From the NCBI GenBank assembly GCA_016870975.1, contig VGAE01000001.1, forward strand, positions 1-64,000: DNA of 64,000 nucleotides, given 5' to 3'. The notes under the pieces were generated by a model, which was given only the letters and a program-made list of their open reading frames with translations, was not told the DNA's origin and made no database searches. Below are positions 10,729 to 16,236 of the stretch, piece by piece (the first letter of the stretch is position 1; each line of letters begins with the position of its first letter). The position numbers and the translations under genes are program-made. The DNA comes from Actinomycetota bacterium (GTDB lineage: Bacteria > Actinomycetota > Actinomycetes > Nanopelagicales > Nanopelagicaceae).

Positions 10729-11125
10729 GGTGGCTTCGGTTCGGTTTCTCGTACTCAAGGACAAAACCCATAATTGAGACAATCAGAGCGCCGAGTGCGA
10801 TAAGTGTCATCCACCAACCAATTACTAGACCTATTCCAACAGCTGTGACGGATGCGGCTACAGGTAACGGCCACCAAGAGTGAGGACTGAAAAAACCTAA
10901 TTCGCCGGCACCATCAGCAATCTCAGCAGTTAGATTGTCTTCCGGAAGGACGCCGCCGGTTCGGCGATTGGAGAACCAGAAATAATAACCAATTATCAAA
11001 GCCAATCCTGCGCTCAACGCAAGCGCGGTTATACCTACAGGCTCATTGGACATCTGCCAATATACGACGGTTACAAGCGCGTAGAAAAAGAAGAGAAAGA
11101 GAAATAGCTGGTAGCCAAATTTCAT
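10721..11125 (-). CDS. ctaF: Cytochrome c oxidase subunit IV, actinobacterial type (CtaF)
   Basis: Small accessory membrane subunit specific to actinobacterial aa3 oxidases. The 134-residue protein has N-terminal hairpin helices (about residues 5-52), a polar loop, the motif [14 protein letters not shown], and two further helices, which is the CtaF pattern. Its ATG overlaps the ctaD stop by 4 nt, and its stop overlaps the SRPBCC gene. Identification rests on this topology and on the ctaC-ctaD-ctaF order, which is conserved in the phylum. Confidence 0.9.
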
Positions 11126-12789
11126 TTCTTATGTCCATCCTCAATTGCGGCATGCTCCGGATGATGCAGGTCAAAAGCTGGACGCTCCGAGCGGATGCGT
11201 GGCATGGAATAGAAATTATGTCTAGGCGGTGGGCAGGAAGTCGCCCATTCTAAGGAAGCGCCATAACCCCATGGATCGTCTACTCCAACTTTAGGAGCGC
11301 TCTTGGTAATCCAGATATTGATAAAGAATGGAATCATGGATAGCGCAAGTAGGGCTGCGCCTACCGTTGAAACCATATTCATAAATGTAAAACCGTCAGT
11401 GGCTAGATAATCTGCATATCGACGAGGAAAGCCTTTAATTCCTAACCAGTGCTGAATTAAAAAGGTAGTGTGGAAACCGATAAAGAGCGTCCAGAAATGA
11501 ACCTTTCCGAGCGTTTCATTTAACATCCGTCCGGTCATCTTCGGCCACCAGAAATAGAAACCAGCAAACATCGCAAAGACCACGGTTCCAAAAAGAACGT
11601 AATGGAAGTGAGCAACAACGAAGTAAGAGGCGGAGACCGCAAAATCTAAAGGTGGGCTCGCCAAAATAACGCCGGTTAGACCGCCGAGAAGGAATGTAAT
11701 CAAAAAGCCCATCACAAAGAGCATCGGAGTCTCAAAAGTCAGCGAGCCCCGCCACATCGTTCCAATCCAGTTGAAGAATTTAACTCCGGTAGGGACAGCA
11801 ATCAGGAATGTCATAAATGAGAAGAATGCGAGGGAAACTTGGCCAGTTGCGTACATATGGTGGGCCCAAACTGCAACTGAGAGTGCGGCAATTGCAATAG
11901 TTGCCGCTACCAAACCCTTGTATCCGAAAATTGGCTTTCGACTAAATACTGGAAGAATTTCGGTGGCAATTCCAAAGAACGGTAGCGCCAAGATGTAAAC
12001 CTCGGGATGACCGAAGAACCAAAAGAGATGCTGGAAGAGCATGGCTCCACCGTTAGCCGGGTCAAAGATATGCGAGCCAAATAATCGATCAGATTCCAAA
12101 CCGAGAAGAACTGCAGCCAGCGGTGGGAAGGCAATCAAAACCAGAATTGAAGTTAGGAGAACGTTCCAGGTGAATATCGGCATTCGAAACATCGTCATAC
12201 CCGGCGCACGCATTGTGAAGATCGTTGTAACAAAGTTGACGCCACCAAGAATTGTTCCGAGTCCGGAGACAGCTAATCCCATAATCCAGAGATCCGCGCC
12301 GATGCCGGGCGAATAACTAGAGTTTGAAAGTGGAGCATAAGCAGTCCAGCCAAAGGAGGCCGCTCCTCCCGGGGTTAAAAATCCGGCGGTGGCAACGGTT
12401 GCGCCAAATAGGTAAAGCCAATAGGAGAACATATTCAGACGCGGGAAAGCGACATCGGCTGCACCAATTTGCAGCGGCATGATTACATTTGCGAAACCGA
12501 CAAACAGAGGCGTGGCAAACATCAGAAGCATGATCGTGCCGTGCATTGTGAAGACTTGGTTGTACTGCTCTGAACTGAGGAATTGGAGCCCTGGTTGAGC
12601 CAGTTCAGCGCGAATTGCTAGCGCGAGTACTCCGCCAATCAAGAACCAAATAAAAGATGTAATCAGGTAGAGGTAACCGATTACTTTGTGGTCAGTTGTA
12701 GTCAGGATTTTGACGGCGAGCTGGCCTTTAGTCAGCTTTCGCAGAGGAATGTACTCGCGCTCTTCTGGTTTCGTCGCGTAAGTTGTCAT
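11122..12789 (-). CDS. ctaD: Cytochrome c oxidase subunit I (CtaD)
   Basis: Catalytic proton-pumping subunit holding heme a, heme a3 and CuB. Seen: HGTIMLLM (heme a His near residue 83), [12 protein letters not shown] with the CuB His, the E of the D-channel and the cross-linked Tyr (H261, E263, Y265), HH at 310-311, K337 of the K-channel in [10 protein letters not shown], and the heme ligands H394/H396 in VVAHFHYV. The segment just before reads VSASYF: the residues equivalent to bovine H368/D369, which bind the non-redox Mg/Mn ion, are Ser386 and Ala387. The loss is mirrored in subunit II. Length of 555 is normal. It overlaps ctaC and ctaF by 4 nt each. Confidence 0.96.
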
Positions 12790-13544
12790 GCGTTCGCTCC
12801 TACTTTAAGGGAACCAATATATGTTTGGTATTCCGCAGGCGTCACCACTTTTACAGTAAAGAGCATTTGGGAGTGTTGTCTTCCACAAAGGATGTTGCAG
12901 CGCCCCGGATAAGTTCCAAGTTCGTTTGCGGTGAACTCAACTTGATTCTCTGCACCGGGAATACTTTGGATCTGCATCATGAACGCTGGAATCCAAAAGC
13001 CGTGGACAACATCTGAGGCCGTTATTTTGAATCGAACCCTCTCTCCTTGAGGCATGTAAAGGGTCGGCGGTTGTGCTGGCGTGCCAGTTACGGTCGTTCC
13101 TGGGCCGGCATCTTGATAGGTGAATTGCCATGACCACTGGAATGCATTGACAGTTACATCATGAACATCGGTGGCTGTGATTGGCGAAACCTCTTTGATC
13201 TCATTCTGAGCTCGCGCGGTGTATCCGAATAGAACTGCGATAATCAAGAACGGAATTACGGTGTAAGCAATCTCAATTGGGACGTTGTACTGAAATTGTT
13301 TAGGAAATTTTTCATCCTTTTTACGATGAAAAATCGCCGGCCAGATAATTAAAATCATGGTGAAAACGCCAACTACCGCTGCAGCAATCCAGGCGCCTTG
13401 CCAGAGAGTGAAAGAGTGTTGATTCACGCTTGAAACGTTCCCCGTAAAACCAACGCCTCGAAATTCCTCGGATGAGCATCCGGCAAGAATTAAGACTGAG
13501 GGGAGTGTAGATATTGCCGCGAGAACCCGACGCTTTAATCGCAC
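12786..13544 (-). CDS. ctaC: Cytochrome c oxidase subunit II (CtaC), lipoprotein
   Basis: Holds the binuclear CuA centre that receives electrons from QcrC. A signal peptide ends in the lipobox LILAGCSS (Cys23), followed by two membrane helices (about 50-70 and 92-110) and an external cupredoxin domain. CuA ligands are H181, C216, C220, H224 and M227. The residue between the cysteines that is normally Glu (bovine E198, whose backbone binds Cu and side chain binds Mg/Mn) is Ile218. The start is GTG 13544. A TACTAT -10-like element lies about 10 nt upstream, so the transcript may be nearly leaderless. First gene of ctaC-ctaD-ctaF-SRPBCC. Confidence 0.95.
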
Positions 13545-13600: not shown

Positions 13601-14686
13601 GTGTCCCCCATCACAAACCTAGATTTTCGAAGTGAGCTTCGCCAATCCGCCAGGTCTCAGCAAGCTCTAATTGATGCATTGGATTTGGCCGGATTGGATC
13701 CCCGAAAAATCCATCATGGCTCGGCTCGGTTACGAAATGCTTTAGGTGAAGCGCGCGAAAGTATCGCAACCGATCTGGAAATCTCACCATCAAATATCGA
13801 ATTTGTTGGTGAGTTAGGTATGGGATTTTGGCTGGCGATTGAAGGAATGCTGCGCTCATCAGAGGCTCCCTTTGTTTATTCGGCAATCGACCGTCAACTC
13901 GTACATGCAATTGCGCGTCAAGAGAAGGAACGAAAAGTAATAGAGCTACCCGCGCCTCACTCCGGCGTAGTTGATTATGAGGATCCAAAAATTCCAAACG
14001 ATTCACTTATATCTTGGCAAGCGGCAAATAGAGAGACCGGAGTTCTGCAAGCTAATCCAAAGCGCAGCTCTCTAAGAGTTTTTGCCGATATGACAGCTAC
14101 TATCAATCCGAGCGCGCTGCCTCCGCAATGGGTCGCAGCAATCTGGGATCCGAGAAGTTTCTCTGGACCAGAGGGATTGGCGATATTAGCGATATCTGAT
14201 GAATTAGATACCTGGAAGAACCCGCTGCCGAATCTCGATAATCGAAGGAGTTTTGGCTCTCATTCTAAGATTGCAGTGATAGCAACGGCAGTCGCGCTTC
14301 GTGATTGGATGCGAAACCGAGGAGCCCTGGAAGGGCAATTGAATAATTTGAATTCACAGTTACGCTCTCTAATTAGGAAGAGAATACCTGGAGCGCGAAT
14401 CGCTGGAGCAGAGACCGGTGATCCACAACGGATCTCGTTCATCGTCGATGACATAGTTGCTGAGCAATTGCTGCGAGAGATGGAGAAATCTCAGATACTT
14501 ATTGATGCTGGTTCAGCCTGTTCCGCGGCGGAGCTATCTCCCAGCCACGTACTTTCGGCTATGGGTTTTGGCGAAGCTGGTCAGTTGCGAATCACATTAA
14601 AGGCAGAGCACGACGAAGCTGCTATCGAAAACCTTGCAAAAGGTCTCGAAACCGAGATTGCTAAATTACGTTCGAGTTCTAATTAG
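13601..14686 (+). CDS. Cysteine desulfurase (NifS/IscS)-like protein lacking the PLP lysine
   Basis: Aligns by eye along the whole length of class V aminotransferase-like cysteine desulfurases: LHG-like start (IHHGSARLRNALGEARESIA), NRETGVLQ (canonical N-E-T-G-V), D163 at the PLP-nitrogen Asp, and GSACSAAELSPSHVL with the sulfur-accepting Cys307. The block that should read S-x-H-K-F-x-G-P-K-G reads D-P-R-S-F-S-G-P-E-G, so the Schiff-base lysine is Ser186. The His-x-A catalytic segment and the PLP Gln are also not recognisable. It therefore cannot be a conventional desulfurase; it may be a pseudoenzyme. GTG 13601 was chosen because it starts the fold and follows AGGAGG at 13582-13587. It converges on erpA with a 4-nt overlap. 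Confidence 0.75.
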   Translation: MSPITNLDFRSELRQSARSQQALIDALDLAGLDPRKIHHGSARLRNALGEARESIATDLEISPSNIEFVGELGMGFWLAIEGMLRSSEAPFVYSAIDRQLVHAIARQEKERKVIELPAPHSGVVDYEDPKIPNDSLISWQAANRETGVLQANPKRSSLRVFADMTATINPSALPPQWVAAIWDPRSFSGPEGLAILAISDELDTWKNPLPNLDNRRSFGSHSKIAVIATAVALRDWMRNRGALEGQLNNLNSQLRSLIRKRIPGARIAGAETGDPQRISFIVDDIVAEQLLREMEKSQILIDAGSACSAAELSPSHVLSAMGFGEAGQLRITLKAEHDEAAIENLAKGLETEIAKLRSSSN

Positions 14687-15024
14687 TTGAAAGAGTCGCC
14701 GCAGGCGCAGGAGCCTTGGGCATTTGGATTATCAATAGTGAAGCCCTGTTTTTGAATCGTATCCACAAAATCAATTGTGGCGCCCATCAGATAAGGCGTA
14801 CTCATTTTGTCAGTAACAACTTTTACGGTGCCAAATTCTGAGATGGAATCGCCATCTAACGCACGATCATCAAAGTAGAGTTGATATCGAAGTCCAGAGC
14901 AGCCACCTGGTTGTACGGCCACGCGTAATCGCAAATCGTCGCGACCTTCTTGTGAAAGAAGTGAAGCAACCTTCTCCGCTGCGACCTGGGTAAGGACAAT
15001 TCCGGTCTTGGTATCCGTGCTCAT
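14683..15024 (-). CDS. erpA: HesB/IscA-type iron-sulfur cluster insertion protein
   Basis: A-type carrier that delivers Fe-S clusters to apoproteins. The three cluster cysteines are present: Cys in PGGCSGLRYQL and the C-terminal pair in GSCACGDSF. The 113-residue length matches ErpA/IscA. ATG 15024 follows AGGAGT; an upstream start at 15114 would overlap nadA by 27 nt. It is divergent from nadA, whose product needs a 4Fe-4S cluster, and convergent with the NifS-like gene. Actinobacteria usually make their clusters with a SUF system encoded elsewhere, so this is the accessory carrier. Confidence 0.92.
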   Translation of the reverse strand: MSTDTKTGIVLTQVAAEKVASLLSQEGRDDLRLRVAVQPGGCSGLRYQLYFDDRALDGDSISEFGTVKVVTDKMSTPYLMGATIDFVDTIQKQGFTIDNPNAQGSCACGDSFN

Positions 15025-15087: not shown

Positions 15088-16236
15088 ATGGCCAAAGTTC
15101 TCTCTGAATTGCATCTCCTCGGAAGAGAGTCAGATCTCTCGAGCGAGCGGGGTGTCTCCTGCACCGGTGAACTGCCTGAGCCAAGCGATCCAACGCTAGT
15201 TGAGCGGGCCGCGACGGCAAGAGAGAAATTAGGCAAGAGGACGCTAATCCTGGGCCATCACTACCAGCGCGATGAGGTCATTGAATTTGCGGATATAACT
15301 GGTGATTCATTCAAATTAGCTCGCGCAGCTGCAGATCGCGGAGATAGTGAATTCATTGTTTTCTGTGGCGTACATTTCATGGCAGAGAGTGCGGATATCC
15401 TGACTAGCCCTAAACAACAAGTTGTACTACCCGATTTGGCGGCTGGATGTTCAATGGCAGATATGGCCGCGTCTAATCAAGTAAGAGATGCTTGGGAGAT
15501 ATTTGAAAAATTGGGAATTTCTCGAAAGACAATTCCGATTACTTACATGAATTCAAGTGCCGCAATAAAAGCATTTACCGGAGAAAATGGCGGAAGTATC
15601 TGTACCTCTTCAAATGCAGAAAGAGCAATGAGATGGGCTCTTGAAAATGGCGAAAAAATATTCTTTCTTCCCGATCAACATCTTGGTCGAAATACCGCGG
15701 TTCTCCGCCTTGGACTTAATTTGACTGATTGCGTCGTTTGGAATCCATGGAAAAATAATGGCGGCTTAACTGATGATGAAATACGCGGCGCGAAGATAAT
15801 TCTTTGGCGTGGGCACTGTTCAGTACATGGCCGATTTACATTAGAGAACGTAAAGGAGGTGCGAGCCCGCGTACCGAGCGTGCAGATCTTGGTCCATCCG
15901 GAATGCCAATATGAGGTAGTGAGCGCTGCCGATGTCGTAGGAAGTACGGAGAGCATCATTAAAACCATTGAAGCTGCACCGCAAGGATCTTCTTGGGCCA
16001 TCGGAACTGAGCTAAACCTCGTAAAGCGACTCGCCCGCGATAACCCCGGAAAAAAGATTACTTTTCTAGATAGGACAATCTGTTATTGCTCCACAATGAA
16101 TAGGATCGATTTACCGCATCTGGTCTGGGCGCTGGAGTCCCTGGTTCGCGGTAAAGTCATAAACCAAATCAAAGTTCCTGAGAAAACCGCTAAAGAGGCA
16201 CGAGTTGCGCTGGAGCGCATGCTCGCCCTACCTTAA
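15088..16236 (+). CDS. nadA: Quinolinate synthase NadA
   Basis: 4Fe-4S enzyme that condenses iminoaspartate with dihydroxyacetone phosphate to quinolinate in de novo NAD synthesis. Visible motifs are GHHYQRDEVIEFADITGDS, FCGVHFMAESADIL (first cluster Cys), GGSICTSSNA (second), and FLDRTICYCSTM (third). Length of 382 is usual for the long actinobacterial form. It begins 63 nt from the divergent erpA start. No nadB or nadC is adjacent, although these often follow in actinobacteria, so the partner genes must lie elsewhere or be replaced. The DUF3043 gene follows after 5 nt. Confidence 0.96.
   Translation: MAKVLSELHLLGRESDLSSERGVSCTGELPEPSDPTLVERAATAREKLGKRTLILGHHYQRDEVIEFADITGDSFKLARAAADRGDSEFIVFCGVHFMAESADILTSPKQQVVLPDLAAGCSMADMAASNQVRDAWEIFEKLGISRKTIPITYMNSSAAIKAFTGENGGSICTSSNAERAMRWALENGEKIFFLPDQHLGRNTAVLRLGLNLTDCVVWNPWKNNGGLTDDEIRGAKIILWRGHCSVHGRFTLENVKEVRARVPSVQILVHPECQYEVVSAADVVGSTESIIKTIEAAPQGSSWAIGTELNLVKRLARDNPGKKITFLDRTICYCSTMNRIDLPHLVWALESLVRGKVINQIKVPEKTAKEARVALERMLALP

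Follow-up and report, generated by a model that had tools for sequence, protein, structure and literature searches.

We analyzed a 64,000-nucleotide stretch of DNA (the window) from an actinobacterium of the Nanopelagicaceae, in which a gene for a NifS/IscS-like protein without the lysine that binds pyridoxal phosphate (PLP) is flanked by cytochrome oxidase genes on one side and by genes for an Fe-S carrier and quinolinate synthase on the other. The genes of the locus and the residues discussed below are as follows:

11122..12789, minus strand: ctaD, cytochrome oxidase subunit 1, a conserved neighbour
12786..13544, minus strand: ctaC, cytochrome oxidase subunit 2, a conserved divergent neighbour
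13601..14686, plus strand: Lys-less NifS/IscS-like protein of 361 aa, GTG start at 13601, stop at 14686
13706..13708, plus strand: Lys36, a Lys in 55/65 Nanopelagicaceae sequences and an Arg in every Lys186-containing orthologue
13892..13894, plus strand: Arg98, aligned at the catalytic His position (His104 of E. coli IscS)
14027..14041, plus strand: N-R-E-T-G (residues 143-147), retained in the alignment
14087..14089, plus strand: Asp163, the PLP-N1 Asp position, retained by family conservation
14147..14149, plus strand: Asp183, aligned where active orthologues have an invariant Ser
14156..14158, plus strand: Ser186, aligned at the PLP Schiff-base Lys position
14495..14566, plus strand: Cys-loop segment I-L-I-D-A-G-S-A-C307-S-A-A-E-L-S-P-S-H-V-L-S-A-M-G
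14588..14590, plus strand: Arg330, the substrate-carboxylate Arg position (IscS Arg354), retained by family conservation
14683..15024, minus strand: A-type Fe-S carrier (ErpA-like), a convergent, conserved neighbour
15088..16236, plus strand: NadA, quinolinate synthase of the long type (PF02445, 4.8e-100), the proposed client

The order ctaD and ctaC (minus), NifS-like gene (plus), erpA (minus) and nadA (plus) is conserved class-wide. Convergence with an A-type Fe-S carrier, noted in an earlier sequence-only reading, is borne out, the NifS-like gene ending 4 bp inside the carrier gene (14683). A longer ORF with a TTG start at 13514 is unlikely to be in use, since the MSPIT start of the window protein is common to its relatives. 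Open-licence papers on pseudo-desulfurases or an actinobacterial NifS-TusA locus did not describe this arrangement.

The cysteine-desulfurase layout recognized from the sequence is corroborated by domain, structure and model searches. The protein scores 28.3 bits against Pfam Aminotran_5 (cut-off 21.5) and matches IscS and NifS entries of the PDB with E values down to 1.8e-9, the best sequence match being Archaeoglobus fulgidus IscS. Its AlphaFold2 model (39 sequences; pLDDT 91, pTM 0.90) superposes on Nfs1, IscS and A. fulgidus IscS with Z scores of 37-39 across 340-358 residues, and Foldseek returns TM values of 0.85-0.89 against IscS-type structures, so that a class-V aminotransferase/IscS fold is predicted. 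The curated equivalog cut-off for NifS (TIGR03402) is missed, at 75 bits versus 531.

Among the hallmarks of group I cysteine desulfurases, the window protein has the catalytic Cys on a mobile loop; the PLP Schiff-base Lys, the catalytic His and the PLP-phosphate motifs S-G-T and S-x-H are absent. Alignment leaves the N-E-T-G motif, Asp163, the Cys307 loop and Ser186 in the Lys column where they had been placed before; residues 306-312 of the loop have pLDDT < 50 in the model. The catalytic-His segment had been called unrecognizable, which proved wrong: it reads SAIDRQ, with Arg98 in place of the His. Residues 71-73 are E-L-G at the PLP-phosphate S-G-T position. In E. coli IscS, H104 and K206 variants show zero desulfurase activity (PMC9978102).

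The same losses run through the family. Relatives were taken from GTDB genomes and from named records (Candidatus Nanopelagicaceae), the latter giving 24 loci through an alignment query of contigs (a single-protein query returned none), and residues were counted in 69 sequences. The PLP Lys is missing from all 69, its position being filled by Ser, Ala, Tyr, Asn, Ile, Val and a few others, which rules out a sequencing error in one genome. S-G-T survives in only 0-6% of these sequences, the catalytic His has become Arg in 61/68 and Lys in 5, and Ser183 has become Asp in 56/69 (81%). Every sequence retains Cys307, Gly304, Ser305, Ser315, Val317, Asn143, Glu145, Gly147, Gly189 and Pro190; Asp163 and Arg330 are retained in 96-99%, and P-S-H-V-L of the Cys loop in 96-100%. 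Family-wide loss of Lys, His and phosphate site with complete retention of the Cys supports the earlier suggestion of a pseudoenzyme holding a reactive Cys. One genome (G035; C11, C47) carries two divergent NifS-like copies, each with TusA, and two loci (L112, L116) from records that bear the names Bifidobacterium breve (MAG) and Clavibacter sp. BS5 are of the Nanopelagicaceae type, the records being probably misnamed.

Could the protein still be a PLP enzyme, through a relocated lysine or non-covalent binding? A search for a nearby lysine found none at or adjacent to site 186 of the window protein, which has Arg185. The sole candidate substitute, Lys36, is 85% conserved in Nanopelagicaceae in place of an invariant Arg, but it is missing from the other 15% and from all other Lys-less lineages, and we judge it unlikely on account of this patchy conservation. 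Some PLP is still bound by E. coli IscS K206A (PMC9978102); here, however, the pocket has lost S-G-T and the stacking His and has Asp for Ser183, which suits neither PLP nor its phosphate. We regard persisting PLP chemistry as very improbable.

A decaying gene, as the sequence-only reading had also proposed, or an assembly artefact would fit the fast evolution of the protein (74% identity to the nearest relative versus 89-98% for its neighbours) and the few interrupted copies in draft genomes (G011, G024, G025). Yet the frame is open and conserved family-wide, Arg98 and Asp183 are newly conserved, and dN/dS is about 0.07-0.20 (Nei-Gojobori; sequence pairs with unsaturated dS), as under purifying selection; for the window gene and its nearest relative it is 0.13 at a dS of 1.4, which is near saturation. 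Decay is refuted as a general explanation and, with artefact, hardly credible. Taken with residue conservation, these ratios place the Cys loop and the reshaped pocket under purifying selection, and PLP binding outside it.

Beyond Nanopelagicaceae, most orthologues have a complete site (VEHS, SAHKWGGP). The Lys is present in copies from many families and missing in copies from about ten; the Lys-less copies outside Nanopelagicaceae come from f22, f23, f29, f32, f33, f34, f40, f42 and f45, and the Cys is kept in 19/19 of them. Parsimony on the protein tree, whose backbone is weak, counts 8 changes, and a single Lys-less clade is not rejected on that tree (p 0.32). A tree of the neighbours CtaC and ErpA rejects such a clade (p 3.6e-5; 7 changes), which makes repeated loss of the lysine, or transfer into the same spot, the likelier history.

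The clearest companion of the gene is nadA. In a set of 151 Nanopelagicaceae genomes, the NifS-like gene and NadA agree in presence throughout (151/151): the same 17 genomes lack both, namely 15 of genus g40 together with G027 and G169. Several complete g40 genomes have neither gene at the locus, where erpA and a PfkB-like kinase remain; the g40 losses may be one event, and given the close spacing, co-loss could partly reflect physical linkage. At two loci (L214, L219; G094, G139) the kinase lies between ctaC and erpA, with the NifS-like gene and NadA gone. In a wider sample of 201 genomes, six incomplete ones are unclear or discordant: NadA is found without a clear NifS-like gene in G189, G207, G223, G229 and G230, and the reverse holds in G236.

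Actinobacterial NadA comes in two types that switch within families, a long one ending V-C-x-C-S-T-M and a short one mostly with C-x-x-M-K-M (class genomes; loci L242-L249 compared with L230-L241). In other families, where carriers were set by a score threshold, synteny-checked for a sample (two were assigned by hand from synteny), and where kinship among mostly draft genomes inflates counts, 138 of 140 carriers have long-type NadA, two have none and none has the short type; non-carriers have the short type in 51 cases, the long type in 25 and no NadA in seven. Long-type carriers and short-type non-carriers coexist inside f9, f14, f17, f26, f33 and f42. At 11 of 12 long-NadA loci for which no orthologue had been called, a NifS-type gene lies within about 5 kb of nadA, containing the Lys in ten and being a divergent Lys-less orthologue in G242; at the twelfth, nadA sits at a contig edge. 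At one locus (L233, G239) a pair of distinct NifS genes, both with the Lys, lie next to each other at 11237 and 12459, about 4 kb from nadA. Eight short-type loci show no NifS-type gene near nadA, the one match, 7 kb off, being an unrelated SufS-like gene. The NifS-like gene is genetically linked with nadA, as in NadA-dedicated NifS, and its association with NadA is well supported by comparison of these genomes. Because other families keep the Lys beside the same NadA type, its ancestral function was enzymatic.

A second companion, frequent in relatives, is a TusA-like ORF with a C-P-x-P cysteine directly downstream of most orthologues, Lys-less ones included. In f19, which we take to be a Streptomyces-like family, the orthologue and a TusA domain form one in-frame fusion (L054, L132-L152). 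TusA occurs in 75/151 Nanopelagicaceae genomes, nearly always directly beside the NifS-like gene; in most of these copies the second TusA motif, A-W-C, has become A-W-A or A-W-S, and the C-P-x-P Cys is retained. No TusA occurs in the window's genus, where the NifS-like gene abuts erpA, and as an invariant partner TusA is rejected there.

This pairing, and the near confinement of TusA to the locus in Nanopelagicaceae, would suit a protein that serves sulfur traffic other than NadA, passing persulfide with TusA to tRNA thiolation, molybdopterin or general Fe-S assembly, the NadA link being a by-product of gene order. We think this unlikely: the gene stays in the window's genus though TusA is missing, NadA type predicts its presence in many families, and erpA persists where the NifS-like gene and nadA are both gone. 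The earlier idea of a sulfur or cluster chaperone fits our results, with a shift of emphasis, as the adjoining ErpA is a weaker clue than NadA, to which the main link runs, with TusA added in relatives.

The genome also has a canonical IscS (C1:115310, SAHK) and a SufS (C5:60430); a SufU-like gene, the only NifU_N gene found there, adjoins SufS. No iscU-like partner adjoins the NifS-like gene, whose neighbours are ctaC and erpA. The presence of a canonical IscS, together with a complete IscS fold whose predicted retained surface would permit dimer contacts, invites a reading as an inactive subunit or regulator that forms a heterodimer with housekeeping IscS and directs the sulfur of that enzyme towards a client. 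A purely regulatory subunit, though, would not need 100% conservation of the Cys loop, and the protein is just 29% identical to the IscS of this genome, which makes this reading quite improbable.

NadA-NifS precedents, the Lys-less A. fulgidus IscS and the inactive E. coli variants instead make Cys307-based NadA maturation the best reading. We give a probability of roughly 55% to a NadA-dedicated Fe-S maturation factor turned cysteine-only relay or cluster ligand, its NadA link drawn from comparison and its chemistry inferred. On this reading the window gene represents, in Nanopelagicaceae, an actinobacterial NifS-like protein dedicated to NadA, a [4Fe-4S] quinolinate synthase, and usually working with a TusA-like persulfide carrier. 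With the PLP site dismantled in Nanopelagicaceae and several other families, the protein would no longer extract sulfur from cysteine. The housekeeping enzymes, IscS or SufS-SufU, may deliver sulfur or a ready-made cluster with the help of TusA or ErpA, and NadA may be loaded or repaired through the mobile Cys307 loop, which would either relay persulfide or bind a cluster transiently. The parts that we infer are physical contact with NadA, the source of sulfur and what the loop does chemically. Against this maturation factor count the window's genus, where a relay would have to run TusA-free, the lack of an adjoining iscU-like partner, the close spacing of the genes, and the Lys-bearing versions that other families have beside the same NadA type.

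More tentatively, and with somewhat less than even confidence, we propose that a NadA-dedicated desulfurase has repeatedly, in about ten actinobacterial families, become a cofactor-free protein for NadA maturation or repair through its Cys loop alone, desulfurase chemistry being inessential to the partnership. Two questions meet in this conserved locus, the role of Lys-less IscS proteins such as those of archaea and why NadA often has its own NifS. Natural versions with and without the Lys beside the same client make the role of the Cys loop testable apart from desulfurase chemistry. Such genes should not be annotated as cysteine desulfurases.

Several known systems share parts of this arrangement. 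E. coli IscS and Nfs1 have in common with the window protein the fold, the mobile Cys loop and the Asn, Glu, Asp and Arg pocket residues, but they possess the PLP Lys, the His and the phosphate cup, all three of which it lacks. The f19 NifS-TusA protein, a syntenic orthologue of the window gene, likewise has Lys, His and phosphate cup, as well as its fused TusA, whereas the window protein has none of these. Closer in kind are A. fulgidus IscS (4EB5/4HVK; Lys199 to Asp) and Methanosarcina acetivorans IscS1, NifS/IscS folds in which the PLP Lys is replaced and the Cys loop kept. A. fulgidus IscS reportedly shows no desulfurase activity and ligates a [2Fe-2S] cluster through a Cys (PMC7585200), and similar ligation of a cluster by the window protein is our proposed alternative to a relay. 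It has lost only the Lys, with the S-x-T and His motifs kept, and pairs with IscU, whereas the window protein has lost its entire PLP site, its gene has no iscU beside it and the linked client is NadA. Dedicated partners of NadA are known elsewhere: B. subtilis NifS acts in NAD synthesis (PMC6522883), and NadS of C. glutamicum is grouped with nadA in ndnR-nadA-C-S (PMC11995493). Like the window protein, both are NifS-type proteins tied to nadA and NAD synthesis, but they are annotated as PLP-dependent cysteine desulfurases, which, judging by its residues, the window protein should be unable to be. In plants, SufE3 is a fusion of SufE and NadA (PMC5890173), a dedicated sulfur supply to quinolinate synthase that resembles the role proposed here with a helper of unrelated fold.
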